From IMG/VR virus record IMGVR_UViG_3300025769_000230, positions 1 to 44,180 of that record: a stretch of DNA of 44,180 bases; one strand, written 5' to 3'. The notes under the pieces are model-generated. The model searched no databases. It was given only the letters and a program-made list of their open reading frames with translations, and was not told the DNA's origin. Shown here piece by piece: positions 1 through 33,783 of this stretch. The DNA comes from a virus. Within the stretch, counting starts at the first letter, position 1; every line of letters starts with the position of its first letter. A program made the position numbers and the translations under genes.

Positions 1-3000
1 CGTAAGTTCTTGAGATTGTACAACCCAACTACAGGTAAAGGTGGTGTAGCGTCATTCACCGGAATAGCAAGTAGCACATTCACAGGATGTGTAGGAGATA
101 CTGACTTCCAAGAAATAATTAAGGGTGATATATCTTCTTACAAAGTAGTCCCATCTTACTACATACCTGCTGGTTCTACTCGATTCTTTGCAGCACGAAG
201 ATTGCGTGACCACGCTGAGGTAAGCGGTAACAGCCCCGATACAGCCCATACTCTATACTTTAGAGGTGCTACAGAAGAAGTACCAAAGACACTCTTTAGA
301 AGAACAAGATTATCACCATTGGCTGCACCTCGTATGGGTCATCACTTCGTAAACCCAACTATGGCAGTGTTACCCGGACATTGGGCACATCCTGCATATC
401 AAGGACTTTACAATAAGCATTTAGCAATAAGGTCTGCAACTCTAAATTCTGAAGAAAAGGCATTAATGAAAGAGCAAGATTTAGACCATATAAAAAATGA
501 CATCAGTAGCACACTAACAAACAAATTACACGGATATGATACCCTTCATAGATTTGGTGCATTGAATGCTACCCCAAGTGGACCGAGTGATGTTCACGGC
601 GGGGCATTTACTTTGATGTTTGAAACTAAGATTAAGACCGATGGGTATGGTGTACTTGCGTCTGAAGGTCAAGCAGGTGTAGTAAATGCCGCAGGTGGAC
701 ATACTGTAGTGCTTGAGGCTGCTGCTAACTACACACTAGACAACCACTTCCCCGACCCTTCAGAAGTTGGCGCATATCAGATTGTTATACAACCTAACGT
801 ATTCAAATCTCAAATGTTGGGTTTCCATGCAAACGGTCCTGCTGATGATGTGCCCGATGGAACAGTCAATGAGTTAACAAGTCAACAAGTAGCACTTGTC
901 ATAGGTATTAGAGAATCTGATAGCGCAACAGGTGGGCTAGGACTTGTATTGGCTGAAGCAACTATGGCTGATGTAAGAGGATGTGAGATATTCATTAACG
1001 AAATTATGATTGACCACGACCCCGACCATATGAGTCAATTTACAAATATACCACCGTTGATGACTTACAATCCATTAGGAGTACAATCTACCGAATCACC
1101 GGCGTTTGTAAAGAACTCATTACCATATCAACCACAAATGTTCGTAAAGGCTACACCCGGTTATACTACTAACATACCGTGGTGGAGTATCACACATAGA
1201 TACGGCCCCGACCATTCTCAAGCAACATCGTTTAGACATCTAAGCCACCATAGATTCGATAACTACTATGAGTTTATACGAGCAGGTGCAGGTAGCATAG
1301 GATGTCAAATTACGCTTGCTGGTTACCCAAGTACACACCCCGACATTTATCATGAGATTCTTGAAAATGTAAGTTTGAATCCTGTATGTACTGTAGTATC
1401 TGTAGCGGCTACAACTATCACGGTAGACGATGCAAGAGGCTTCCCAATGGTGCCTTACTACGGTAACAAATTAGAGTACACCGATGCAAGCGGAATAAGA
1501 CGCACTCATGATTACACTGAGCGTAGTGGATATGATTTATCCAATATGAATAAACCAAAGCAATTCACTATCACAACAAATACTAATTTCACGAGTAATT
1601 TAACTGCTGGTACAAAATTGCGTTTAACTCGTGCTTATGATTTCAGACCATCGGGTAGTATCTTTACTGATTCTAAATCTAGTATGGTAACAAGAATTTT
1701 ACCGCAGATGCTACAAGGTAGCAGAGATACTAACAGCCTACACATGGCTGATGCATTCTTATGCCTGTGGCACCCTAATCTTGGTCGCCCACATACTTTC
1801 TATTCTGATTCAAGTCGTACATGGTTATCCCCTACACTAGATAGAGCAGTAGACAAGAAACCATTGAACAGTATGCCCGAACACTTTGAAACAATACACT
1901 ACCATGAGTCTACTTACTACGCAAGTATGGGTCCATTTGGTCTACAAAGAAAGACACCTCGCCCACCTCATAAATACAAGAACAGTAGCAACACAGCAAT
2001 TACTTTCACGTCTAAACATTCGGGAAGTGTAATGAATGTCAATACCACGACAGGATTGACAGGTACCCCTACCATAATGGTAGATGGTGTGGTTTTCACT
2101 GTAGCGAGTTTTACAGCGAGTCCAGCCCGTATAACTGTGAATGAAACAATACCGGATAATCTCACTGCTGGTGTAAACATTCTGCTCAGTGCTGATGGTA
2201 CAATGATAACCGCTAATGATATGGAAGGCTCGTTAGCATCTGTAGATGGAGGTACGATTCAACAATTCTTCATACAAGGTGGTAGAGCATTAACAGGAGA
2301 TGCAAACTCTGACAACATGCTAAACCACTTTTGGCCTTGTGGCTCTCGTGGTGGGCCACTTGTCAGTAGACTTGATGGGTATGGGTATGTGTCTACTTCG
2401 TGGGACTATCCGAGAGACTACACATTCGATGCACCTGTTTGGGTAGATGACGATGATAACGGGTCTTACACAGTAAGTAGCGGTATTAGTAAAACTAACT
2501 ACAGTAGTATATCTAATCCAACTCGTGTTAGACCATTTGGTTACAGATTTGGATTGCGACAACCATACAACAAACCACAGTGGTCTACTTATGGTTTAAG
2601 GGCACTAAGAGAAACCGCTATCACAGCAACTAATGCATCAGTGAGTTATCAACACGGCCCACTTGTACAAAGAGAAACGCAGACTTGGACATACGCTGGT
2701 GGTTCAGCCGGTGCATCTAACCCTGCATATCCTAACACATATGTCGGTATAATGGAAAGACAAACTAACTTTAGTGGTATGTTAGGTGTGGACATTCCCG
2801 AAAGACAAGTGCGTTACAGTGACGGTATGAGAGTTACACGACCATTCGGTTGTCCTGTACGCACACTAAGAAACGCATCTACTGTAGTAAGAGAATGGTG
2901 GGGCGAAGGAAACGGTAAGGGTATCTACAACATTGACGATGCACTAAGATACTACATTGTAGATTGGTGGGGTAATACTCGTGGTGAAGATGTACGCAGA

Positions 3001-4713
3001 TTCCCTGTTCGTGGGTTTGGTATCAAACCTGCATGGGACAGTGCTGATGTTTACGAGTATGACAGAACTAATGATAGAACTCCTTACCAACGTCTGTACA
3101 ATGACGGCTCACCAATTGTAAACGGTAAGGGTATCATAGACAATTCGGGAGATGTAAGTGTATCAAGCGGGTTTACTATTCCTAAGTATGGTGGTAGACT
3201 AAACAACAATAACAACAACAGTTCTACAACATTAGTTGACGTATTCTTACCAACCAATGCACAGAGAGTTGGTGATAGTGGTAGAGGTTACGGTGTAAGA
3301 TACCCTACTGCATTCAATGAAGATTTACTAACAGACATAGATGAGCCTATCCATACAACAGGTGTAGTCTTGTCTCACCACACAGCAGAACCTAACATGA
3401 ATGATGGTTACATTAGAGCAAGAGATGACGTACTACAAAGTGATGAAGTACCCCGTGGTATAAGTGCTAGACTAGATATTGCTGAAGACGGACTATTGAA
3501 ACCCGATGCTGTAGTAAGCGACAGAATAGAAACAGTCAGTGGTGACTCGCCACACAAAGACGCTATCAGCAGAAGTAGTCCTCGTATTGGATTAGACACA
3601 GAAAACATTGAGGGTGTAGATGAGAACATGATAATCATTAACACCGAAGCACACAGTCTCCACACTGACAGAAACGTGGGACAGCGTGTAGTTCTACACG
3701 GCGGTATGCAGACAGGTTCTCAGACTCTAGGTGACTATGACCTCACTGCACTAAACTTCGGTGGACAGCCGCAAGGTGGTGTGATTAGACTAAGCCATAC
3801 GTCAAATTTCAATCCTCTTGGTGGTACATTCCTTGCTGAAACACGCAACTTCGTATCTCCTATTGATGACAGCAATTGGGGTGGGTTTACTGATGCTACA
3901 TGTGACTACAACAATGACCCTACTATCACTATGGATTCTACTGCAAAGTTAGTTGTAGGCATGACAGTAACCGGTACAGGTATTCCAGCAGGTGCCACTG
4001 TATCTTCAATTACTGATGCTACTACATTTGAGTTATCAGCCTCAACTACCGGTGGCTCAGTAACCAATGGTACTCTGAGTTTCGGACCGCCTGTAGGAAT
4101 GGGAAGCAACCCCTATGCTACCAGCGTATTTACAACTGCCGGTAAGAGAGCCAACATCACTGATAAGAAAATCACATACATGTTGCGCCCTATTCGATTA
4201 CTAGACAAGCAACACGCTGAGATGTTTAGGTCGAACTCTAACCTACACTCTTCTTCACCACAGTACGGTAGTAACTACTTCGGTGCTACGGCAGGTGGTA
4301 AGTATGGATTGTATCTTTACGAAGTAGAAAACGGAAGGGCGACAAGCGGAGGCATATACATGCGAAGCACCAGCCCCGACTCCAACCCACCGTATGCCCC
4401 TGCATATCACATGGACATATCAGCAAGTGACACTGTACCAATCAGTAAGGGTCCAAAGATTAAGGGTACAGAGGTTACAACTTTCGATAAGACATTGTTA
4501 GACAATGAGGTAACTCGTGTAATAATTAGCGAAAATTCACTACAGCATCATCGTGCCGATGCCCCTCGTAGAAGGTCACACGAAGAAGGAGATGTAAAAG
4601 AATTAAGGATGGATTATTCTGTTCAACCTAGATTCTCTCAGTCTCTCCATCAAAAGGGACATAAAGGCGATGTAACCTACAATAGTTCGGACCATAGCGG
4701 TGATGCGGCATGA
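1..4713 (+). CDS. Very large virion protein (tail/baseplate/fibre type), 5' partial
   Basis: The reading frame is open to the first base of the window (codons CGT AAG TTC precede the first TTG), so the true start lies upstream and at least 1570 residues are visible. The protein is rich in Gly, Thr, Ser, Asn and Tyr, without a membrane segment or an enzymatic motif that I recognise. Around residues 1290-1360 is a beta-rich block with the pattern GMTVTGTGIPAGATVSSI, which is common in structural proteins of marine tailed phages. An Asn-rich stretch lies near residue 1065. It ends in an ATGA overlap with the next gene and heads the late module, upstream of tail-hub and fibre genes. A virion role is inferred from composition and position; the exact part of the particle is unknown. 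Confidence 0.6.
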   Translation, partial: RKFLRLYNPTTGKGGVASFTGIASSTFTGCVGDTDFQEIIKGDISSYKVVPSYYIPAGSTRFFAARRLRDHAEVSGNSPDTAHTLYFRGATEEVPKTLFRRTRLSPLAAPRMGHHFVNPTMAVLPGHWAHPAYQGLYNKHLAIRSATLNSEEKALMKEQDLDHIKNDISSTLTNKLHGYDTLHRFGALNATPSGPSDVHGGAFTLMFETKIKTDGYGVLASEGQAGVVNAAGGHTVVLEAAANYTLDNHFPDPSEVGAYQIVIQPNVFKSQMLGFHANGPADDVPDGTVNELTSQQVALVIGIRESDSATGGLGLVLAEATMADVRGCEIFINEIMIDHDPDHMSQFTNIPPLMTYNPLGVQSTESPAFVKNSLPYQPQMFVKATPGYTTNIPWWSITHRYGPDHSQATSFRHLSHHRFDNYYEFIRAGAGSIGCQITLAGYPSTHPDIYHEILENVSLNPVCTVVSVAATTITVDDARGFPMVPYYGNKLEYTDASGIRRTHDYTERSGYDLSNMNKPKQFTITTNTNFTSNLTAGTKLRLTRAYDFRPSGSIFTDSKSSMVTRILPQMLQGSRDTNSLHMADAFLCLWHPNLGRPHTFYSDSSRTWLSPTLDRAVDKKPLNSMPEHFETIHYHESTYYASMGPFGLQRKTPRPPHKYKNSSNTAITFTSKHSGSVMNVNTTTGLTGTPTIMVDGVVFTVASFTASPARITVNETIPDNLTAGVNILLSADGTMITANDMEGSLASVDGGTIQQFFIQGGRALTGDANSDNMLNHFWPCGSRGGPLVSRLDGYGYVSTSWDYPRDYTFDAPVWVDDDDNGSYTVSSGISKTNYSSISNPTRVRPFGYRFGLRQPYNKPQWSTYGLRALRETAITATNASVSYQHGPLVQRETQTWTYAGGSAGASNPAYPNTYVGIMERQTNFSGMLGVDIPERQVRYSDGMRVTRPFGCPVRTLRNASTVVREWWGEGNGKGIYNIDDALRYYIVDWWGNTRGEDVRRFPVRGFGIKPAWDSADVYEYDRTNDRTPYQRLYNDGSPIVNGKGIIDNSGDVSVSSGFTIPKYGGRLNNNNNNSSTTLVDVFLPTNAQRVGDSGRGYGVRYPTAFNEDLLTDIDEPIHTTGVVLSHHTAEPNMNDGYIRARDDVLQSDEVPRGISARLDIAEDGLLKPDAVVSDRIETVSGDSPHKDAISRSSPRIGLDTENIEGVDENMIIINTEAHSLHTDRNVGQRVVLHGGMQTGSQTLGDYDLTALNFGGQPQGGVIRLSHTSNFNPLGGTFLAETRNFVSPIDDSNWGGFTDATCDYNNDPTITMDSTAKLVVGMTVTGTGIPAGATVSSITDATTFELSASTTGGSVTNGTLSFGPPVGMGSNPYATSVFTTAGKRANITDKKITYMLRPIRLLDKQHAEMFRSNSNLHSSSPQYGSNYFGATAGGKYGLYLYEVENGRATSGGIYMRSTSPDSNPPYAPAYHMDISASDTVPISKGPKIKGTEVTTFDKTLLDNEVTRVIISENSLQHHRADAPRRRSHEEGDVKELRMDYSVQPRFSQSLHQKGHKGDVTYNSSDHSGDAA

Positions 4714-5540
4714 TTAGTGTAAAGGTGTATGAGGTAGGCCCAAGAGATGGATTACAGTCGTTAGGATATACTGTAGATACGGAGACAAAGAGACAACTTA
4801 TCCAATCTCTTTATGATGCAGGTATAGAGACAGTAGAAGAGACATCTTTTGTTCATCCTAAACTTGTACCTAACATGGCAGATGCAGAAAAAGTATTCAC
4901 CGGCAAAGGTTCAGCACTTGTCCTTAACAAGCGTGGATATGAAAGAGCGAAGGCAGCAGGTGTAGAAAAATTCAACATTGTGCTATCCCCCTGTGAAACT
5001 TTCAATATGAAGAATATGAATGCTAGACACGATGAATTAGTATTACGATACAGGACTTTCATGTTGAATGTACCAAAAGAAAATGTAAGAGTGTATATCT
5101 CTATGGCTTTTGGTTCACCGTATAGTGGTCTTACATCTGACAATCAAATTATCAAATGCATTCGTGATGCAAAAATGTTTGGTGACACAGTAGTATTTGC
5201 TGACACTGTAGGGTGTGCAGATAGATTACAGATTGGAACATGGGCTGACTATGCACACAAAGAAGGCTTGAACGTAGCGTTACATCTACATCATAAGGGA
5301 GATGAGAGTAACCCACTATCTATGATAAGAGCAGGTATATTCTCCGGTATTACAGAGTTTGATACCAGCATAGGAGGATTAGGAGGTTGTCCTTTTGTAG
5401 AAGACAGTGGTGCTAATTTAGCCACTGAAACCCTTGTCAGACATCTAAAGGCATGGGGAGTGCATTGTGATGTTGATGAAGATAAACTCCAACAGGCACT
5501 AAAAATTACTCGTAAAATAAAAAGTGGGGCGACGGCGTGA
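4710..5540 (+). CDS. HMG-CoA lyase homologue (DRE-TIM metallolyase)
   Basis: Members of this family cleave 3-hydroxy-3-methylglutaryl-CoA to acetyl-CoA and acetoacetate in a TIM barrel with a divalent metal. The signature EVGPRDGLQ (residues 8-16) carries the catalytic Arg12 and metal-binding Asp13. VEETSFVHPKLVP (42-54) supplies Glu43, HLHH (192-195) supplies the two metal-ligand His (192, 194), GLGGCPF (223-229) supplies the catalytic Cys227, and Asn236 lies in the ANLATE segment. FGSPYSG (134-140) also matches the family. All key residues I could align are present, so it is probably active. At 276 residues it is slightly shorter than the usual ~300. It overlaps both neighbours by 4 bases (ATGA at the start, GTGA at the end), so it is cotranslated with virion genes. 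A metabolic enzyme in this place is odd. A related lyase or synthase activity cannot be excluded. Confidence 0.88.
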   Translation: MISVKVYEVGPRDGLQSLGYTVDTETKRQLIQSLYDAGIETVEETSFVHPKLVPNMADAEKVFTGKGSALVLNKRGYERAKAAGVEKFNIVLSPCETFNMKNMNARHDELVLRYRTFMLNVPKENVRVYISMAFGSPYSGLTSDNQIIKCIRDAKMFGDTVVFADTVGCADRLQIGTWADYAHKEGLNVALHLHHKGDESNPLSMIRAGIFSGITEFDTSIGGLGGCPFVEDSGANLATETLVRHLKAWGVHCDVDEDKLQQALKITRKIKSGATA

Positions 5541-6952
5541 CAGTAATCAAGAATACCGCAACGGGTCGTTACAGCACTGATGCTGATGAAATTATGACCC
5601 ATGTAAGAAAGCCGGTATTTGTTGATAACGCTGTACACCATGCCCGTTTATCACTACAAAAGAGTAACAAGGCTAAGGTGATTATTGAGAAAAACAATAC
5701 TCGTACATTGCAGGTTATGCCTCAGAGAGCATATCAACTTTTGGAAGGCGAATCGTATGTTCAACTCACCCATGTAAACAAACCGGGTCACTCTAGTCTT
5801 AATGCACCATTCTTTAACGATGATGTAATTTCATCTACCAATACACCTATGCTATTGTATAATACTGAATCGGGTAGCCAGCGATTACTACCTTCTACCA
5901 TAGATACATCATCTTATGGTGTCAAAGCGAATCTAAGAAACATGAAAGCCAAGACGCTAGACAGCATAGGGTTTACAGGTAATACAGTTAAGTTAGGACA
6001 GCCTATAGACGTAGGACTTCGTACTTCTGACTTGGCTGTAAGGTTGGGTGAATCAATAGATAGCGGTGCTACCAGCGTAAATATTTCAAGAGCAAAGAAC
6101 GTCACAGCATCCTCAGCCCGTAAGCATAGCAAACGCTTCGTAGGTCAAGACTTTAACAACATGAATTTAATGACAGCACTGAGATTCCTTAGTAGACATG
6201 ATAGTAGAATGGTGCTACTAGATAGGTTTGGTAATCTATTGTATATACCAATTACATTTAGCGAGTCTAACTTTGATGTTGATGGTAACTTTAGAACAGG
6301 TGCAAGAACAGAAAACCCTGTAGATAACATACCAAACAGAGTTACTGTACAAGGTCTACCTCTAGCACTTAACGACTTAGTAATAGTAACTGTAGATGAT
6401 GTGGAAGGGCAAGTAGAAGAAGTAAGAGAAGATTCTGCACCAATAATGGACAGTACAGTAAGAACTACTAACGCAGCACGAAGAGTTGCAAGACAGATGC
6501 TAAAGTCACGTTCATTGATTCAAGGGTCTATAACAAGCGAAGGTCACCCCGGTATCATAGGATTAAGACCCGGCATGGTCATAAAATATAGTGGTGAAAA
6601 TAAAGTTGTTACCGAGGTAAAACACATGCCAATCAGAAACATGAGTGACATATCTTTGCTAAACCTAGATACAGGTATAGAAGGTATTCTACAAGGTATA
6701 TCTGAAGGTTCTACTGTGGGTGCTAACGAGACTAACCCTGCGACATATGTACAGGTAGTAGAACAAAACTTGGCATTGTTTGGTAAGATAGAATTGCGTA
6801 TCAGTACAAGTGTTACCTCTCGTGGTGTATTTAATACAGCATACCTTATCGGCGGTGTGAAGGGTACTCAAGATAGAGGTAAGATAGGTAAGGCCGATGG
6901 TCTACCTATTGGTGGTAGTAAGACAAGAAGGGGGCGATTATATTCCGGTTAG
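5537..6952 (+). CDS. Putative tail hub / baseplate protein
   Basis: The start is the GTG in the GTGA overlap with the lyase gene. The 471-residue product shows the layout of tail-hub proteins related to phage late-control gpD and T4 gp27: a mid-region with LMTALRFLSRHDSRMVLLDRFGNLLYIP (about residues 214-240), then NRVTVQG, then an Arg-rich helix with repeated Ala/Arg. After that comes GSITSEGHPGIIGLRPGMVI (about 332-351), which resembles the lrpGdvi turn that precedes the last domain in hub proteins. No signal peptide or membrane helix is seen. Its position between a huge virion protein and a tail fibre supports a baseplate or hub role. The assignment is from pattern only and needs profile or structure comparison. 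Confidence 0.5.
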   Translation: MTVIKNTATGRYSTDADEIMTHVRKPVFVDNAVHHARLSLQKSNKAKVIIEKNNTRTLQVMPQRAYQLLEGESYVQLTHVNKPGHSSLNAPFFNDDVISSTNTPMLLYNTESGSQRLLPSTIDTSSYGVKANLRNMKAKTLDSIGFTGNTVKLGQPIDVGLRTSDLAVRLGESIDSGATSVNISRAKNVTASSARKHSKRFVGQDFNNMNLMTALRFLSRHDSRMVLLDRFGNLLYIPITFSESNFDVDGNFRTGARTENPVDNIPNRVTVQGLPLALNDLVIVTVDDVEGQVEEVREDSAPIMDSTVRTTNAARRVARQMLKSRSLIQGSITSEGHPGIIGLRPGMVIKYSGENKVVTEVKHMPIRNMSDISLLNLDTGIEGILQGISEGSTVGANETNPATYVQVVEQNLALFGKIELRISTSVTSRGVFNTAYLIGGVKGTQDRGKIGKADGLPIGGSKTRRGRLYSG

Positions 6953-7286
6953 TGATTACATAAAGAGACTACTGCTTGAGACATTGGCAGATAACATCAA
7001 CGAAGTCATCTTAGGTTTCGATGGTACACCTGCTACAAGTGATGACGGTTCAGCAGGTCGCCCTGCTATTACTCTAGTACCGTCTGTCACCATAGTAGAT
7101 GAAACATCACTATTGGTCGAAGTAACACTACCATATACAGAATCCTTTACTGATAAAATAAGAGAGGTGTATGTACAGTTTCGTGACACTGATGAGTTTA
7201 CACCTGTGGCGAGATACACAATTAGTCCAATTACTAAATCGAATACAAATGAATTACTTATTCAAATAGCAATAGAGGTGGCATAA
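6897..7286 (+). CDS. Small structural-module protein, unknown
   Basis: The first ATG (6897) lies inside the preceding gene and gives 129 residues. The segment before about residue 16 is probably not translated, or the overlap is long: a purine-rich AAGAAGGGGG at 6926-6935 could be a ribosome site for a rare ATT start at 6942. The body, from SDYIKRLLLETLADNINEVILG onward, is a short helix followed by beta-rich sequence ending in LLIQIAIEVA. I do not recognise a family. It sits between the hub-like and fibre genes, and its stop codon TAA shares one base with the ATG of the next gene. A small baseplate or adaptor role is possible but is only inferred from position. Confidence 0.55.
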   Translation: MVYLLVVVRQEGGDYIPVSDYIKRLLLETLADNINEVILGFDGTPATSDDGSAGRPAITLVPSVTIVDETSLLVEVTLPYTESFTDKIREVYVQFRDTDEFTPVARYTISPITKSNTNELLIQIAIEVA

Positions 7287-9493
7287 TGACAGGCAATCCG
7301 TTATCGGGACATACAAAAGCGAATGAATCTACAATGGCTGGTACAGCCACGTTTACAGATGGACTAACAGATGGTGACCATATTCAAAGTCCCACCCTAA
7401 CTAATTACTTAGAAGGATTACACGGTAATGGTATATTGTTAGAAGAAGATACAGCCTATGGTGCTACCAATAGAAACGTGCCCGAAGATTTACCGGGTGT
7501 GGTAGAACAGAATACTAATTCAGATAGGATTAGAGTAACGGGTGGCACTGCTGTTATTGATGGTGTACCATTCCAATTCGCAGGTGGCCCCGGCTCTCAC
7601 ATTGATATTGATTTAACAACTACAAGTCCTAACAGAAGAGCAACATACTCAGCATTAACATCCGGTCAAGAGGCATTGGTGGTAGTTTATGTATCTACCA
7701 AAGACTCTGAAGGCGGGTCGGCTGTAAATAATGTACAGTGGGAGATGGGTACTGCAATTACTACAGCAACTAACGCATACCCTACCACCCCTTCGGCTTT
7801 TCTTAATGACCCAAAGGCTGCTACCGGTTTAGCAACTGATAGCACATCTTTCCAATCTGTAGTGCTGGCAGTTCTTAGAGTGGTTTACAGTGCAAGTGCC
7901 CCCGGTGATTTGAAAATATCAGTCACAGAAAGTAATGACAAGAGGGTATTCATTAGACCATCTCCTATCTATCTGACATCGGTTACTGATGGTATAGTAG
8001 GTGCAACTACTGCTATTGATAGTCATAGTGAAATTGACTCGGCATTAATTACAGGTTCTACAGGTGATTTAGCAGGTAGTCGTTTGGGTGCATTGTGGCA
8101 ATCATATAATGCCGATGGTGATACGATATTGTATTACTCGTCAAAGGATTCGGGAGGTACAAGACATACCCATGTACTAGGACCGGTAGGATATGTAACT
8201 AAGTCACCAAGTGCCACTACGACTTTCACTTTCAATGAGGGACAAGTCTTCGTACTCAATCCTTCAACTGCTATGCAATTCAATCCTAGCGGTACATTCC
8301 CGTTAGGACATTTGGTGTATGTAACTAATGAAGCAGCACATGGTACTAACGGAGTAACATTCGATAATGCTGGTATAGGTATTGTATTATTAGGAAAAGA
8401 ATCGGGGGTATTCGTTTACACCGGTAGTGCGTGGAAGAACGTGATGTTAGCAAGCGGTGCTGTGTCACCTAATGGTCATGGTGCTTCCGGTAACGTACAA
8501 CTATCAGATGGTGCTGGTGGATTTACAAGTGATAATAATCTTAATTTTGACACAGGCACAGATGCTCTTACCGTAAACGATTTGAAAATATCTAGTAGTT
8601 CAAACAATGTAATCATTGAAAATGTAACTTCAAATAAAGACATCATTTTCCAAATAAATGATAATGGTGTTACAACTGAAGTAATGCGTATTGACGGTTC
8701 AACTGCAAGAGTAGGTATGGGAACTACTGCTGCAAGCGCAACTCTACATTTAAAATCATCAACATCAAATCAACCCGAAATACGATTAGAAAACACAAAT
8801 GCCGATACTCAAGAGGCAGTTCTTAGATTTGTGAAAAATACTGCGTCACCTGCTGCCGGTGATGATTTAGGTATAATTAGATTTGAGGGTGAAGATACTA
8901 ACGGTGATAATAACCTATATGCTTATCTTATGGCTCAAATGGTTGACCCAACAAATGGTCAAGAAGCAGGAGAGTTCTTTTTCCATGTCAAACATCAAGG
9001 GCTAACTAACGCAGTAAATGTGTTTGGTATTTCCGGTAGTGCTACAGGTGATGGTGAAATTGTAGTGAATGATGGTGGAAGAAGTGATTTTAACTTCAGA
9101 GTAGAAGGAGATACTGAGCAACATTTACTATTTACTGATGCTGCTAATGATAGAGTAGCAATAGGTCATAGTGGCCCTACTGCTATGCTTGATATAGAAA
9201 CAGGTGGAACTTTTAGAAATACAAGATTGCTTACTGTATCGGTATCAGCAAGCACTACTCTAACGGAATCAGCACACGCTGGAAGGTACAATATATGTGC
9301 AGGAAACATAACATTACCTTCAACTTCAACTGCTGGTGAACATTATGCAATTCTAAATACAACAGGCGGTGACATCACCATTGGTCGTAATGGAAATAAT
9401 ATCAATGGCGCAGGTTCAGACTTTACTTTAGGAACTTTCAAAGCAGCAACTTGTATTGCTATTGGTTCTAATAATTGGATGGTAGTTGGTTGA
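7286..9493 (+). CDS. Tail fibre / receptor-binding type protein
   Basis: The start ATG overlaps the previous stop by one base (TAATG). The 735-residue protein begins with a short Gly/Thr-rich segment and a section with VTGGTAVIDGVPFQFAGG (about residues 86-103). It continues with long beta-rich repeats. Residues about 480-650 hold the pattern LHLKSSTSNQPEIRLENTN, then RFVKNT..., GIIRFEGED, FRVEGDTEQHLLFTDA and DRVAIG. This pattern is typical of tail fibres and tail spikes of marine phages. The end, ITIGRNGNNINGAGSDFTLG, resembles a fibre tip with short strands. It would bind the host surface during attachment. No enzymatic motif is seen. Confidence 0.7.
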   Translation: MTGNPLSGHTKANESTMAGTATFTDGLTDGDHIQSPTLTNYLEGLHGNGILLEEDTAYGATNRNVPEDLPGVVEQNTNSDRIRVTGGTAVIDGVPFQFAGGPGSHIDIDLTTTSPNRRATYSALTSGQEALVVVYVSTKDSEGGSAVNNVQWEMGTAITTATNAYPTTPSAFLNDPKAATGLATDSTSFQSVVLAVLRVVYSASAPGDLKISVTESNDKRVFIRPSPIYLTSVTDGIVGATTAIDSHSEIDSALITGSTGDLAGSRLGALWQSYNADGDTILYYSSKDSGGTRHTHVLGPVGYVTKSPSATTTFTFNEGQVFVLNPSTAMQFNPSGTFPLGHLVYVTNEAAHGTNGVTFDNAGIGIVLLGKESGVFVYTGSAWKNVMLASGAVSPNGHGASGNVQLSDGAGGFTSDNNLNFDTGTDALTVNDLKISSSSNNVIIENVTSNKDIIFQINDNGVTTEVMRIDGSTARVGMGTTAASATLHLKSSTSNQPEIRLENTNADTQEAVLRFVKNTASPAAGDDLGIIRFEGEDTNGDNNLYAYLMAQMVDPTNGQEAGEFFFHVKHQGLTNAVNVFGISGSATGDGEIVVNDGGRSDFNFRVEGDTEQHLLFTDAANDRVAIGHSGPTAMLDIETGGTFRNTRLLTVSVSASTTLTESAHAGRYNICAGNITLPSTSTAGEHYAILNTTGGDITIGRNGNNINGAGSDFTLGTFKAATCIAIGSNNWMVVG

Positions 9494-9494
9494 T

Positions 9495-9926
9495 ATGTAT
9501 ATTGCTTTAATGGGTTGCGCTCAACAGGGTTCTGCTGCACCTTTAGCAGCCACAATTGATGGTGCATCTTTATCTGATACTGCTGTTGAAGTAGGCCCCG
9601 CTACAGGTTCAGTTGTTACTTTCACTACGGCATCGGGGGCACTGAGTGCTACTGTAGTCGCAACGGGAGGAAGTGGTAGTTACACTTACTCTTGGTCGGT
9701 ATTAGCAAAGACTTTGGATGATTCAGATACAGGTAATAGATTTTCTATTAACAACGGAGGAACAACCACTAATGCAACTTACAATTCACTAACCATTGAT
9801 GGTGCAAGACCCGCAAGTGCTGGCCTCCCATTCGTAGGTGAATTTTTGATTAGGTGTGCAGTAAATGATGGTTCTTCCACCTTTAACGTAGATTTACCAT
9901 TTACAATACTTGGAGAATCGGTTTGA
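9495..9926 (+). CDS. Small Ig/PKD-like surface protein
   Basis: ATG 9495 is preferred; a TTG at 9486 lies in the same frame and would add three residues. Both overlap or abut the end of the fibre gene (stop 9491-9493). The 143-residue product starts with MYIALMGCAQQGSAAP, a short hydrophobic stretch with a Cys, and continues with SATVVATGGSGSYTYSWSV, which resembles the strand pattern of PKD/Ig-like folds. It ends in AVNDGSSTFNVDLPFTILG. It is the last gene of the late module. It may decorate the virion or a fibre; the N-terminal LMGC could be read as a lipobox, but no signal-peptide positive charge precedes it. Function unknown. Confidence 0.6.
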   Translation: MYIALMGCAQQGSAAPLAATIDGASLSDTAVEVGPATGSVVTFTTASGALSATVVATGGSGSYTYSWSVLAKTLDDSDTGNRFSINNGGTTTNATYNSLTIDGARPASAGLPFVGEFLIRCAVNDGSSTFNVDLPFTILGESV

Positions 9927-10132: not shown

Positions 10133-11638
10133 CTACTGTACAGGTCGTCGTGCTACTATGTCATCAATACGCAAGATAGCGTTAGTGACTTCTGCTGCGC
10201 TCAGTACAGCCTGTCTAACCAAATCAAGAGGTTCTACTACACCTTCTGCTAATAGGTCTTTGACACCGCCTTCTGTAACATCCGGCCCTACTGTTATCTC
10301 TCCTTGCAGGATGCTGTGTCGCATAGCAAGAATAGTATCTAGTGGGTCATGACCTGCATTCTCTGCAATAGTAGCAGGAATAATTTCTAGTGCATCAGCA
10401 AACGCCTCAATAGCCATCTGTGCCCTACCACCTATCTGTGCTGCATGTTGACGTAGGTATGTAGCCATACGCACATAGGAGTTGCCTCCACCCACGACAT
10501 AGTTCTGCCCCTTCATTACAAGAGATACTACACCGAGTGCATCATCAAACCCACGCTCGACTTCTTCAAGTGTATGCGAAGTAGCACCACGCAGTACAAG
10601 GGTGGCCTCGTTATGTTCAGCCTCACCATGAACAAATAAATACCAAATATCATTCTTTCTTTCACGAGTAATTAAAACTTCACCGGCGGCCTCAATCTCA
10701 TCGGGAGACTGAGCAATAGGTAAGTTGCTAACTCTACTCAATGCACGAAGAGTAGATTCGGGAGTGCGTCTAACTGCCATGATATTGTGCTTCTTCAGAT
10801 GAGAACATACCATATCATTGATACCATCACGCACGAATACAACTCCACCTTTAGGCAGTGCCTTTACGATGTGCTTTGCATTAGCAAGTAAGTCAGCCTT
10901 ACCTGCACTCTTGTAGGTTTGATATGACTGAGCGTCTACAGACAACTGTATGTTATCTTCACTCTTCTCAGTCTCAAGACCTGTGTTAATCAATAGTAAC
11001 TTACTATAATTATCATCACCTTCAAGCACATAGTCCTTGTTTACAATGACACCGTTGAATAGATGCGAATCTTCTATTGAACCACCGGGGAATGAAACTA
11101 CCTTGACGCTTTCAGCATCACCGGCTTTTTCTACTGCTGATACACACAGTTCTGAAACTGCATCCAAAGCATTCTCAAGAGTCTTACCCGTAATCGCTGT
11201 CTTAGCAATGCTTACTAAAAGACCCCTAGATTTACTCTGTTTAGCAATCTCTGTTGTTAGGTACTGCGTAGCCATCTGTGCTGCTTCGTGATAACCACGG
11301 CATATCACATTCGGGTGCAACCCTTTCTCAAACAACATCTCACTGTTACCAAGCAGTTGACCCGATAGCACTACTGTACTTGTTGTACCATCGTAACATA
11401 ATGACTCTTGTGTACGAGCCACTTCTGCTATCATCTTACCGCCGGGGTGAGATACATCTAGTTCACGAAGGATGGTAGCACCATCATTTGTTACAATGAC
11501 ATTGCCGTGTCCATCCACCATCATTTTATCCATACCCATAGGACCAAGCGTAGACCTAACTGTTTCTGCTACAGTCTTCGCTGCTCTTATGTTGTGTATT
11601 TGCGCCTTATCTTGCTTTACATTTCCTGTCTCTGACAT
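10133..11638 (-). CDS. ths: Group II chaperonin subunit (thermosome)
   Basis: Thermosomes are double-ring ATP-driven folding machines of archaea. This 501-residue subunit has the usual order of motifs: LGPMGMDKM (31-39), NDGATIL (51-57), VARTQ (73-77), DGTTSTVVL (83-91), a central apical region, FDDALGVV near residue 365, [12 protein letters not shown], and [15 protein letters not shown]. It is shorter than cellular subunits (about 540-550), mainly in the apical part and at the C-terminus, and lacks the Gly-Gly-Met tail. The conserved GDGTT nucleotide motif reads YDGTT (Tyr82), although the Asp is kept. It lies one base after the exonuclease gene in the same train. A virus-encoded thermosome is a known trait of magroviruses. 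It may fold capsid or replication proteins, alone or mixed with host subunits. Confidence 0.95.
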
Positions 11639-17473: not shown

Positions 17474-19873
17474 TCACCAAAACCTCTTGGGCACTCTTCG
17501 TGCCGTTAGTCCATCAAGATTCCAATTGAGAGTTTGATACACAGATTTGAGTTTAGCGTGAATCCACTTGTTCACTACTGTACCCCAATCAATACTGTAG
17601 CCCTCCAACTCCCTTTCATTCTCATACGCAATCACGTTACAGTACGGTTGACCTTCGGGTACGTCATCAATGAATACCCACTTTACGCTATCACGCTTAC
17701 CAAAGTCTGTACCGTTGTATTGATTAGAATATATGGCTGCTTTTGCTGCATTAGGAGTATGTGATGGATGATACTCATCTAATTCCTTGCTCAAAGAACC
17801 ATAAGATGAGGCATCTGAAATCGTCATATCACCATTAAACACACTTTTGATGAGTGGTCTTGCAATCTCGTATATCGCATCTTCATCCTCACCCGTTGCA
17901 ATTAAAGTAAATACTTTACCGAGTATTTCTTTTGTTAGCGGTGGCGCACTTGATGCTTTGATTGAGAAACCTGTAACCTTCATGTCACCTGCTTCTTCGG
18001 GAGGCCATGACTTTACACCAAAATTACGATTCTTCATGTTAGCAGTAAACCAATACGGGAAGAATGCTTCTAATTCGACATCAAGATATTTCAGATTCAT
18101 TTCATTCTGAGCAATATCTGTAAGTTTAACAGCCACTTCTTCTGCTTCTTCAAACGGAACCTGTATGTAACACGAATCAGTGTGACCTGCAAGACCACGA
18201 TAACCCATCTCTTCACTCTTGTCAACTAACATAGAGATAGACTTACGACCTAGATAGGTGATAGACTGAGCAATTGGATAACTAACCCATGCGCCTTGTA
18301 TCATACTCAAACCTACCATACCGTAAATCGCATTCACGCTGACCTTGACAGCCATCTGTAACATGTTGTAACCCAACTTCTCATCAGCATTCGTAGCCTC
18401 TTTCATGAGTCTCTTGTAGTGCTTACGCAACTTCAACAACTCTCTAACCACAGATGGAAGAATACCTTCGATGTCTTGTCTCCAATGGTATGTACCACCT
18501 GTACCTTTGATGTAGTTACCATCTTCATCTATCTTAGGTGGTATCTTGAGTGTCAGTGTGTTAGGCCCCGGCTTGTCAGTCAGTGTAGTATGACATAGGT
18601 TAGCCGAGATAATGATGTTAGGATATAGAGATGCGAAATCCACTAGCGCAACATTCTCATGTCTTCCTGCTACGGGAGGCATAACCCATGCTGCCTGTAG
18701 TTCGGGTCTACTTTCTTTCCATGATGAAGGTGCTTTCAATTCTGTGTGCCTACCAATCAACCCTCTGAAGTATCGTGATACATTGTGGGTGCTACCAAAC
18801 TGTACACCACACACTTGCTGCATTGCAAGGTGGTATGCTGTACAATTCAATTTGTCATCAATGTCACGCAAGAGAGTAGTATCAACTAGACAGTAATCTA
18901 CGAAGTCATCATAGTATTCAGACCAACCGTTGAATACAGTCATACCTTCTATTTCATCAGTAAGTTTGTGTCCTAAGTCTAATGCTTCTGCAAACCATGC
19001 AAGTTTCCTTGATTGTGCTTGACCTTTACCGGCCTTCTGCCACACACCCTCAAAACCACTACCTTCACTATATGTTGCAGCAGTATCAAATACCAACCTA
19101 CCCTTGATAGGTTGGGCTGTAGACTTGTAGCCCTCACCATTCTTCTTAGGTGGAAGGAATGTATTGATAGGTGACATGTCATCTCTGAGTGGGCCAAGCC
19201 TATCATACAGTTTGGGTAAGTCAGCCCATGCCCCTGCGTGAGCAATCAACATGTCCGGGTCACGTTCTCTTAGATAGTCTAAGAATCCCTCAAGCATCAT
19301 CAACTCATCGGGGAACGTGCGTAGTTCATATCCATCATAACGGTCTATCCATTCTGTCTTTGTAACATTGTCACGGATAGACTCTTGACTCCAAGCGAAT
19401 ACTACAGGACTTTCAGCATCAGAATCAGCCACGGCTATCACAGTGATAAGACCCTCACCATCTGTTTGCCACTCCATATCGTAGTACCACTTACGAGGTT
19501 TGAACTCCGGTAACTTATCGGGATAGTTTGTGAGTAGGATTTGGTCAAGGTAGTTTAGGTCAGCCTCGCATGTCCACTTACCAACCATGTCTTTGATTTC
19601 CCATAGTTGGTTCGGGTGATTGACTTCGGCCTTCCATACTAAACCACCATTAAGTGCGTAAGAAGTTTCATCTTTATTTATTCTGACATTCATTCTCTCA
19701 AGACGATTGAGAACATATGAAGGTGCATTCTGCTTTATCCAACAGAAAGGATATACGAAGTCGTCATCCTCATGCGTGATGTATCTTTCATGAAGTACAC
19801 CATCATTCCCACGAGTACGCTCATAGATGATGGGCGGCTCATACGGGTCATTGGATATGAAATCAATAATCAT
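17474..19873 (-). CDS. polB: Family B DNA polymerase with exonuclease domain
   Basis: The main replicative polymerase. The start is the ATG at 19873, which shares a base with the PCNA stop (TGATG); an upstream TTG is less likely. The exonuclease motifs are Exo I YYDMEW (Asp132, Glu134), Exo II AHAGAWADL (Asp218) and Exo III YCLVD (Tyr327, Asp331). The polymerase motifs are A, VDFASLYPNI (Asp412), and B, KVSVNAIYG (Lys510). Motif C reads LAGHTDSCYI, so the first Asp of YGDTDS is His564 while the catalytic Asp566 remains. I checked this at nucleotide level near 18182-18200. The protein has 799 residues, within the family range. It lies directly behind the clamp gene, with nuclease, primase and ERCC4 downstream. 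Confidence 0.97.
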   Translation of the reverse strand: MIIDFISNDPYEPPIIYERTRGNDGVLHERYITHEDDDFVYPFCWIKQNAPSYVLNRLERMNVRINKDETSYALNGGLVWKAEVNHPNQLWEIKDMVGKWTCEADLNYLDQILLTNYPDKLPEFKPRKWYYDMEWQTDGEGLITVIAVADSDAESPVVFAWSQESIRDNVTKTEWIDRYDGYELRTFPDELMMLEGFLDYLRERDPDMLIAHAGAWADLPKLYDRLGPLRDDMSPINTFLPPKKNGEGYKSTAQPIKGRLVFDTAATYSEGSGFEGVWQKAGKGQAQSRKLAWFAEALDLGHKLTDEIEGMTVFNGWSEYYDDFVDYCLVDTTLLRDIDDKLNCTAYHLAMQQVCGVQFGSTHNVSRYFRGLIGRHTELKAPSSWKESRPELQAAWVMPPVAGRHENVALVDFASLYPNIIISANLCHTTLTDKPGPNTLTLKIPPKIDEDGNYIKGTGGTYHWRQDIEGILPSVVRELLKLRKHYKRLMKEATNADEKLGYNMLQMAVKVSVNAIYGMVGLSMIQGAWVSYPIAQSITYLGRKSISMLVDKSEEMGYRGLAGHTDSCYIQVPFEEAEEVAVKLTDIAQNEMNLKYLDVELEAFFPYWFTANMKNRNFGVKSWPPEEAGDMKVTGFSIKASSAPPLTKEILGKVFTLIATGEDEDAIYEIARPLIKSVFNGDMTISDASSYGSLSKELDEYHPSHTPNAAKAAIYSNQYNGTDFGKRDSVKWVFIDDVPEGQPYCNVIAYENERELEGYSIDWGTVVNKWIHAKLKSVYQTLNWNLDGLTARRVPKRFW

Positions 19874-20625
19874 CAAGCATCACTCTCATTTATTATTAAG
19901 AGTAAAGTATTATCTTGCTCAAAGATTACAGGTTCGTTGTCGCCCATGTGAAATCTAGCATTGCCCTCATCAAGATACTGTAAGCACTTGGGTAACCAAT
20001 CACCAAAGTACGTTTCGACTGTAGCGTTAGGCCCGTCAGCATCAGTGATAGGTAGTGTAGTGAACAGACGACCTGTAGCAGCCTTACCAGCCACTATACC
20101 CAAGTCATCCTCTCCACAGTGTACCCTCAACTTGAACTGAGAATCAGCCGCAACCAATCCCTTCATACCAGCCAATGAAATCAAATCCTTAGTTTGAACA
20201 TTAGCATGTACATTGAGTATCGCACCGGAGAAATCAGACCAACCTACAGATGCACAATCGGAAAGTAACTTACGGATAACCACAGTTTTACTTGCTGATA
20301 AAATATCATCAGTGCTTGGTATCTGCAACTTGTTACCACCTGCTTCAATGTGAAGAGGTTTCACCGGTGTAGTCTGTCTAAGAGTTACGTTGTCTTGCTT
20401 GCTCGCCTTCAAGAAACCGATTGCTTTCTCAAGCATAGCGATGTGGATAAACCCTTCATCAACTATCGTAACACCTGTAATGTGCTTACGCAAGTAGTAG
20501 TTAGCAAACCCTACCTCGATAGTAATACGATTACCAGCGCAACTCATACGCACGTCTGTTACACCTTTTCCAAAAGAGGAAAGGAAGGTAAGCAACTCTT
20601 TTCTATCTACACTAATTTTACACAT
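19873..20625 (-). CDS. pcn: PCNA-like sliding clamp
   Basis: The clamp is a ring that tethers the polymerase to DNA. This 250-residue protein has the family length and beta-alpha rhythm: an N-terminal RKELLTFLSSFGKGVTDVRMSC, a middle segment where the interdomain loop would be, and a C-terminal NARFHMGDNEPVIFEQDNTLLLII, which matches the end of PCNA (strand, Gly-x-Asn/Asp, Pro, then a hydrophobic strand). It is diverged and lacks strongly diagnostic motifs, so its place directly before polymerase B is part of the evidence. A ribosome site GAGGTG (20631-20636) lies 5 bases before the ATG. It is the first gene after the longest noncoding gap in the window. Confidence 0.8.
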   Translation of the reverse strand: MCKISVDRKELLTFLSSFGKGVTDVRMSCAGNRITIEVGFANYYLRKHITGVTIVDEGFIHIAMLEKAIGFLKASKQDNVTLRQTTPVKPLHIEAGGNKLQIPSTDDILSASKTVVIRKLLSDCASVGWSDFSGAILNVHANVQTKDLISLAGMKGLVAADSQFKLRVHCGEDDLGIVAGKAATGRLFTTLPITDADGPNATVETYFGDWLPKCLQYLDEGNARFHMGDNEPVIFEQDNTLLLIINESDA

Positions 20626-32821: not shown

Positions 32822-33460
32822 TCAAGCAACTCTTCTTGAAACGTCTTGTATTCTCTGTTGAAGAATATCTCTTGTCCGATTGTTACGGATGTGTTCTAAT
32901 GCATCTGTCATCGCATCAGTACCTCCATAAAAATCAAACGATTGTCCTAATTCCTTGTCGGGTATGTTCAAGAAATAAGGATTCTTTTGTCTCATTGTAT
33001 CTATCTCTCCTACCTTACTACCGAATGCTTGTCCCTTTGGTGCGCCCATTGCTCGGAAAGGGCCAGCCCCACCCAAGTCAACGTAGGATAGTGTACCATC
33101 GGGTCTGCGTACTGCATTGTCAGCATCCATACCAATCATATCCCAATTGGCTGCTACTGCATGAGGTACAAAGTCACGGCTCAACTGTGACAAGTCCTTG
33201 TCCGATACATCGAAACCTAATCGCTCGTCACCTTCGTAAGCCGTCAGCATCATACCATCCTCCATTCTTGCATCCGGTACAGGAACTCCTAGTGCATTCA
33301 TGAAACGATTGAAGTCATACTCATTTTGAATGTGAGCAGGGTGCGCCCCTCTCTTACCTACGAACTTGCCCTGTGGTGTATCGTACAGTTTAGCACCTGT
33401 ACTTCCACCCAAAGGGATGTTCTTTCGCAAGTATTCCATCGCTTCATCAATAGCAGCCAT
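32822..33460 (-). CDS. Kinase-fold (HipA/PI-kinase-like) protein
   Basis: ATG 33460 is chosen; the frame extends to a TTG inside the gene upstream. The 212-residue product has a Gly-rich loop LGGSTGAKLY (17-26), Lys36 in GKRGAHPAHIQNEY with Glu47, and a catalytic-loop-like NWDMIGMDADN (105-115: Asp107, Asn115), followed by YVDLGGAGPFRAMG (Asp128). This order (P-loop-like turn, Lys/Glu, D-x7-N, DxGG) fits an atypical protein or lipid kinase fold found in tailed-phage proteins. Phosphotransfer is predicted but the substrate is not known. It is the last gene of its train. Confidence 0.65.
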   Translation of the reverse strand: MAAIDEAMEYLRKNIPLGGSTGAKLYDTPQGKFVGKRGAHPAHIQNEYDFNRFMNALGVPVPDARMEDGMMLTAYEGDERLGFDVSDKDLSQLSRDFVPHAVAANWDMIGMDADNAVRRPDGTLSYVDLGGAGPFRAMGAPKGQAFGSKVGEIDTMRQKNPYFLNIPDKELGQSFDFYGGTDAMTDALEHIRNNRTRDILQQRIQDVSRRVA

Positions 33461-33465
33461 CTTAA

Positions 33466-33783
33466 TCAATCCCTGTACTTTTCTCCCCAATTAAAATATG
33501 TCGCCCATACTTTACCCAACAAACGACTGTAATTGTTATCTGAAACTGTGTTCTTGAAATTGTCATATTTCATGTGTGTCAATCTCAAGGTTAGGAAATC
33601 AATTATATCCTCTTTAAGTATGTCTGCCCTAAAGGGATAGTCAGCATCTTTAATGTAATACATTTCAGCATCGGGGAAGGCTCTCTCGATAGCATCGGGA
33701 TGTCTCGACCTAACTAGCAAGTGGTCGGGCTTATTCCTGTGTGCTACAATACTGAATGCACCTTCAGTTAGATATATCCACAT
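33466..33783 (-). CDS. Conserved phage-type hypothetical protein
   Basis: The 105-residue product starts MWIYLTEGAFSIVAHRNKPD and continues LLVRSRHPDAIERAFPDAE (23-41) and DYPFRADILKEDI. This pattern (MW-----FSIV--R--PD-LLVR-R---DIE--FP) recurs in small proteins of many tailed phages; the role is unknown. It shares one base with the stop of the gene upstream and lies directly before the kinase-like gene. Confidence 0.75.
   Translation of the reverse strand: MWIYLTEGAFSIVAHRNKPDHLLVRSRHPDAIERAFPDAEMYYIKDADYPFRADILKEDIIDFLTLRLTHMKYDNFKNTVSDNNYSRLLGKVWATYFNWGEKYRD

Follow-up and report, generated by a model that had tools for sequence, protein, structure and literature searches.

A divergent and mobile viral branch of HMG-CoA lyase in magroviruses

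Gene content of the locus

The window, meaning the whole stretch of 44,180 nucleotides that was analysed, carries an intact HMG-CoA lyase-type gene (HMGL) on the plus strand at positions 4710–5540, encoding 276 amino acids between an ATG start and a TGA stop. A sequence-only reading of the same DNA had placed an HMG-CoA lyase here; its coordinates were confirmed, and its family was borne out by profiles, structure and tree. The translational coupling to the flanking genes that it described was also found, as the stop codon of the giant gene upstream and the HMGL start share the four nucleotides ATGA (4710–4713, plus strand; GGAGG is absent upstream), and the HMGL stop and the start of the next gene share GTGA (5537–5540, plus strand), again four nucleotides.

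The upstream gene (10–4713, plus strand) is cut at the window edge and encodes the C-terminal 1567 amino acids of a giant virion protein, which in relatives reaches at least 3166–3333 amino acids. Its homologue in the related locus L005 gave a PHROG virion structural protein match (E 8e-23) and a weak LamG match. Downstream on the same strand follow a predicted ORF for a tail-module protein of 471 amino acids without an assignable fold (5537–6952; AF2 pLDDT 41, no significant match in the PDB profile search), a conserved neighbour of 129 amino acids identified from the ORF list and the locus comparison (6897–7286), a protein of 735 amino acids called fibre-like from its sequence character only (7286–9493), and a protein of 146 amino acids with a weak match to Hoc-like head-decoration proteins (9486–9926; E 0.0086). 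The virion character that had been ascribed to this module is supported by the PHROG match of the L005 protein and by the terminase, which relatives encode on the same strand as HMGL. The convergent replication module occupies the minus strand, beginning with a thermosome chaperonin (10133–11638; Pfam Cpn60_TCP1, E 8e-123) and including the family B DNA polymerase (PolB; 17474–19876; Pfam E 1.5e-43), which is thus on the strand opposite to HMGL.

Features described for magroviruses (order Magrovirales) were found, namely a tailed-virus terminase, which was seen in relatives only and not in the 44-kb window, an archaeal family B polymerase, an ERCC4 nuclease, and opposed late and replication modules. 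The magrovirus gene set and layout used for the comparison were those of PMC10160649 and PMC12999244; the phage collection searched contained no close named magrovirus record. These viruses are thought to infect abundant marine archaea. Xu et al. 2023 listed HMGCL among the metabolic genes of magroviruses and assigned it, based on KEGG, to leucine degradation (PMC10160649). Annotation and type of virus agree with those found here and the family is almost certainly identical, so the gene itself is already known. Where that study only named the gene, the clade, its spread over PolB groups, the strand rule, the exchange between viruses, the divergent loop and the membrane partner are new here. 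In the literature searched, no other study of HMG-CoA enzymes as metabolic genes carried by viruses was found.

Assignment to the HMG-CoA lyases

The 276-aa protein matched the Pfam HMGL-like domain (E 6.8e-19) and the NCBIfam HMG-CoA lyase family PRK05692 (E 1.2e-59), its 201.9 bits falling below the curated cut-off of 246 bits, which is a classification threshold and not a mechanistic feature. The second-best NCBIfam family was LEU1_arch (E 2.8e-7), and the top sequence matches in the PDB were HMG-CoA lyases (E 1.9e-36). The AF2 model (pLDDT 93.7) forms an HMGL-like TIM barrel, for which VIA-align ranked all eight solved HMG-CoA lyases first (Z 34.9–36.6), followed by 4-hydroxy-2-oxovalerate aldolase (Z 27.9) and isopropylmalate synthase (Z 26.9).

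The viral protein thus has the fold of the bacterial and human HMG-CoA lyases (EC 4.1.3.4; PDB 1ydn, 6nds, 3mp5, 2cw6, 2ftp, 1ydo), the structures of which are 29–34% identical to it across about 270 residues, and shares with them the catalytic Arg, Asp, HxH, Cys and Asn as well as the GGLGGCP loop. It differs from them in its shorter alpha3–beta3 loop and in its identity of at most 39% to cellular enzymes among the matches listed, all from bacterial loci. The other DRE-TIM metallolyases (isopropylmalate, homocitrate and citramalate synthases and 4-hydroxy-2-oxovalerate aldolase) have the fold in common with it (Z 22–28) but had far lower profile scores, and the isopropylmalate-synthase-type sequences stood apart in the tree. 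Among predicted viral-protein structures the sole strong match was the HMGL-like protein of Klosneuvirus KNV1 (A0A1V0SKU2; TM 0.89, 29% identity), a giant virus of protists belonging to another virus lineage.

The tree included 87 sequences and was rooted on isopropylmalate-synthase-type sequences; it was built with a quick method and has several long branches in the cellular rows. In it, 47 viral HMGL sequences formed one clade with a long stem branch and SH-aLRT support of 97, or 99 when the distant L039 was included, within the HMG-CoA lyase side of the tree, itself supported by 100. Because the viral clade falls inside this side, the placement that the sequence-only reading had named beforehand as its refutation, a grouping with citramalate or isopropylmalate synthase, was not found. 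Identity as an isopropylmalate, citramalate or homocitrate synthase was ruled out by profiles, tree and structure together.

Active-site residues and divergent motifs

The catalytic residues listed from the sequence at the outset (Arg12, Asp13, Glu43, His192, His194, Cys227 and Asn236) were all present and invariant among the viral relatives. Together with D165 they were unchanging across 40 aligned viral proteins and kept in 71 alignment rows (about 70 distinct viral relatives), truncated fragments excepted, and they match the complete human set of R41, D42, E72, D204, H233, H235, C266 and N275. On the plus strand of the window, R12 and D13 (4743–4748), in the motif GPRDGLQ, are the catalytic Arg and a metal-ligand Asp, roles that we take to be those of R41 and D42 in human HMGCL. 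E43 (4836–4838) and D165 (5202–5204) are the counterparts of human E72 and of human D204 in DTxG, C227 (5388–5390) is the catalytic Cys of GGLGGCP, and N236 (5415–5417) is a metal-ligand Asn. H192-L-H194-H195 (5283–5294), in strand E188–195 of the AF2 model, comprises the HxH metal and catalytic pair and an extra invariant His, and starts the loop HLHHKGDE.

The histidines were paired differently by different alignments: phmmer and the profile–profile alignment (hhalign) matched H192 and H194 with the cellular HxH, whereas MAFFT, ungapped in this region, displaced them by two positions. We prefer the former register, a judgement based on the variation at K196 and its complete absence at H192 and H194. 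Under this register catalysis is probably kept in the viral clade, and the handling of the substrate may have changed.

Two motifs near the active site were lost in comparison to a set of 80 cellular HMG-CoA lyases. The N and E of GLQNE, present in 73 and 76 of the 80, respectively, are mostly S, A or Y and L or I in the viruses. The loop after the histidines, HxH[DN]TxGxxLAN in cells, reads HLHHKGDE in the viruses, two residues having been inserted, and contains the new invariant H195 and a near-invariant E199; the corresponding loop of isopropylmalate synthase resembles the cellular form. Both motifs are common among cellular HMG-CoA lyases and not known to be essential, but as they are lost the exact viral substrate is not secure.

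Distribution, strand and exchange

Two IMG/VR scans gave 39 and 80 loci, the 80 being the best of 187 confirmed candidates, on contigs of up to 107 kb. Among records sampled by their PolB, HMGL was present in 7 of 33 and in 4 of the 10 longer than 60 kb, and it is an accessory gene. Comparison of the window gene with eight relatives indicated purifying selection, dN being far below dS (0.06 and 0.96, respectively, against L004). HMGL, accessory in the viruses, intact and under purifying selection, is a candidate auxiliary metabolic gene.

Wherever an HMGL-bearing record had a terminase match (21 records), HMGL lay on the terminase strand, and in the 21 where PolB was matched it always lay opposite to PolB; these counts come from related genomes and are not independent. 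The strand rule is informative despite this kinship since the position of HMGL differs between lineages. The late expression proposed earlier gains indirect support from these 21 of 21 genomes, strand being a proxy only.

The proposal that HMGL lies inside the virion-gene module held for the window lineage (L002–L010) and for L165–167, where the gene is inside the tail module, and failed as a general property. The tail-gene slot is not general because elsewhere the gene stands in other late positions, either closing the late module at its 3' end, beside the thermosome (L015, L017, L020–026 and others) or, in the remaining lineages, amid accessory late genes. These other positions exclude a unique or chance insertion into tail genes, and a core virion gene is excluded by the fraction of long PolB-sampled records that carry it.

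The identities of HMGL and PolB were not correlated among 17 viruses (rho 0.11, p 0.21); the pair G010 and G041, for example, had 38% identity in PolB and 87% in HMGL. These identities indicate that the gene is exchanged between distant viruses, and it appears often to travel together with the small membrane protein described below. The HMGL-bearing viruses span several PolB groups, including a lineage with a split PolB. In the records of that lineage (G038, G039, G042 and G047, with loci L031, L040, L150 and L179) the family B polymerase profile matched in two to three separate places (about 42–558 and 560–698), which suggests that the polymerase is split or interrupted there.

The phage collection also contained two Acinetobacter 'phage' records with an ordinary bacterial leucine-type degradation operon, one of them L042 (CAKLQH020000001.1), and these are probably misfiled host DNA. 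The third match in that collection was an unannotated faecal scaffold.

A membrane protein coupled to HMGL

HMGL is preceded in 22 of 48 representative lineages by an ORF that overlaps its start by four nucleotides and encodes a membrane protein of 51–90 amino acids (e.g. L018:1470–1676, L011:4974–5171 and L169:1872–2144). The protein combines a single hydrophobic helix with a conserved acidic tail, the end of which reads C-x-x-G-[ML]-R-R-G or a near variant of it, with F for C in three. The tail pattern occurred 36 times in the HMGL loci, some loci being counted twice, always at the HMGL start and nowhere else. Of 24 HMGL-bearing records, 11 matched a profile of the protein, which in three of these lies upstream of HMGL without overlap; a weak match of the transmembrane part only, in HMGL-bearing G015, was left out of the count. 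No full-length match was found in 15 records without HMGL (Fisher p 0.0015). The 3' end of the partner gene contains a ribosome site for HMGL of the GGAG or GAGG type in 21 of the 22 lineages, and for this reason the conservation of RRG may partly act at the DNA level. The window lineage has no such partner, and there the stop codon of the giant virion gene takes its place. A reading of the partner as Promethin, based on a weak match below the cut-off (E 0.002), was set aside.

Possible roles of the enzyme

HMGL is a genuine viral branch of a known enzyme; it is divergent and mobile, and earlier work had already named it. As to its function, we lean towards a catalytically competent, virus-specific HMG-CoA lyase that is made late and splits HMG-CoA or a close analogue. 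Cleavage of HMG-CoA, or of a close 3-hydroxy-3-methylacyl-CoA, would depend on a divalent metal together with Arg12, the HxH pair and Cys227 and would yield acetyl-CoA and acetoacetate. Its most likely use would be to free acetyl-CoA during virion production from host HMG-CoA, whether this comes from the breakdown of leucine or from the mevalonate pathway. The coupled one-helix partner probably keeps the enzyme near the membrane in many relatives, while the window lineage would manage without it.

The best-surviving alternative, tentative in itself, is that the enzyme completes leucine breakdown in a host that degrades proteins, with acetyl-CoA and acetoacetate as products, which would make HMGL one more auxiliary metabolic gene. 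It agrees with the assignment of magrovirus HMGCL to leucine degradation by Xu et al. 2023 (PMC10160649) and with the occurrence of cellular homologues in leucine-type operons; however, no other enzyme of the leucine or ketone-body pathways was recognised among the genes neighbouring HMGL.

The sequence-only reading had proposed a drain on the mevalonate pathway, in which the loss of HMG-CoA would lower the synthesis of isoprenoid lipids late in infection, an explanation that is plausible at a rather low probability. Archaea make their isoprenoid lipids via HMG-CoA, from which the routes to all archaeal membrane lipids branch off, and a widespread viral enzyme acting on it would, if true, tie infection directly and in a testable way to the lipid or carbon metabolism of archaea. 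The confirmed family, the location on the late strand and the coupled membrane protein of many relatives are in line with lipid diversion; against it, the same chemistry would serve carbon recovery equally well and the viral substrate pocket is altered.

That alteration bears also on a third explanation, that the metal-dependent carbon–carbon lyase chemistry is kept and another acyl-CoA or 3-hydroxyacid is used. The lost GLQNE and HDTxGxxLAN motifs with the new H195 and E199, the long stem of the viral clade and the low identity to the listed cellular enzymes point this way. A changed substrate is nevertheless rather unlikely, as every catalytic residue and the HMG-CoA lyase-type GGLGGCP loop are retained and the nearest structures are HMG-CoA lyases.

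A more far-reaching version, quite unlikely as a whole, would see HMGL and its one-helix partner as a mobile two-gene late cassette that viruses of marine group II archaea exchange with one another. The partner's cytoplasmic tail (E-E-x-F/L-x-x-x-C-x-x-G-M/L-R-R-G) would bring to the archaeal membrane a lyase whose substrate pocket has been rebuilt, and the cassette would serve to manipulate membrane-lipid metabolism at the end of infection. Proof of the membrane-linked pair or of a changed substrate would make HMGL more significant, and concrete mutants and constructs can be drawn from the active-site loop peculiar to the viruses and from the membrane partner. It is very unlikely that HMGL is instead built into the particle, in the tail or as internal cargo, its position reflecting assembly and not metabolism: tail-module genes are coupled to it in the window lineage and elsewhere it stands amid late genes for proteins with a common N-terminal tag, but it lacks the tag itself, is missing from most sampled related records, shifts its place between lineages and has strictly constrained catalytic residues.

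Other proteins of the late region

The shared N-terminal tag, M-x-(A/P)-F-(D/E)-x-A-W-x-L-L-K, was found in 153 of 1260 predicted ORFs of 49 HMGL loci, on proteins that are otherwise largely unrelated (L011–L030 and L131–L196; e.g. L169:3355–4587, L134:3145–4260, L029:9036–11435 and L178:941–2140). When 50 of the tagged proteins were scanned, none matched Pfam and the PHROG matches were to one family without known function. The tag looks like a targeting or packaging signal, in principle comparable to the T4 capsid-targeting sequence.

Another late-region protein, of 238 amino acids, is conserved in L018 (9897–10613) and 26 relatives (cluster c6); it gave no match in Pfam or PHROG, and has a GPTMVGKTT P-loop and a small-GTPase-like character. 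In the window, an ORF at 32822–33490 on the minus strand, which is that of the replication genes, has an internal Met that begins MAAIDEAMEYLRKN; this stretch is similar to the late-protein tag, and the sequence after it is possibly kinase-like.
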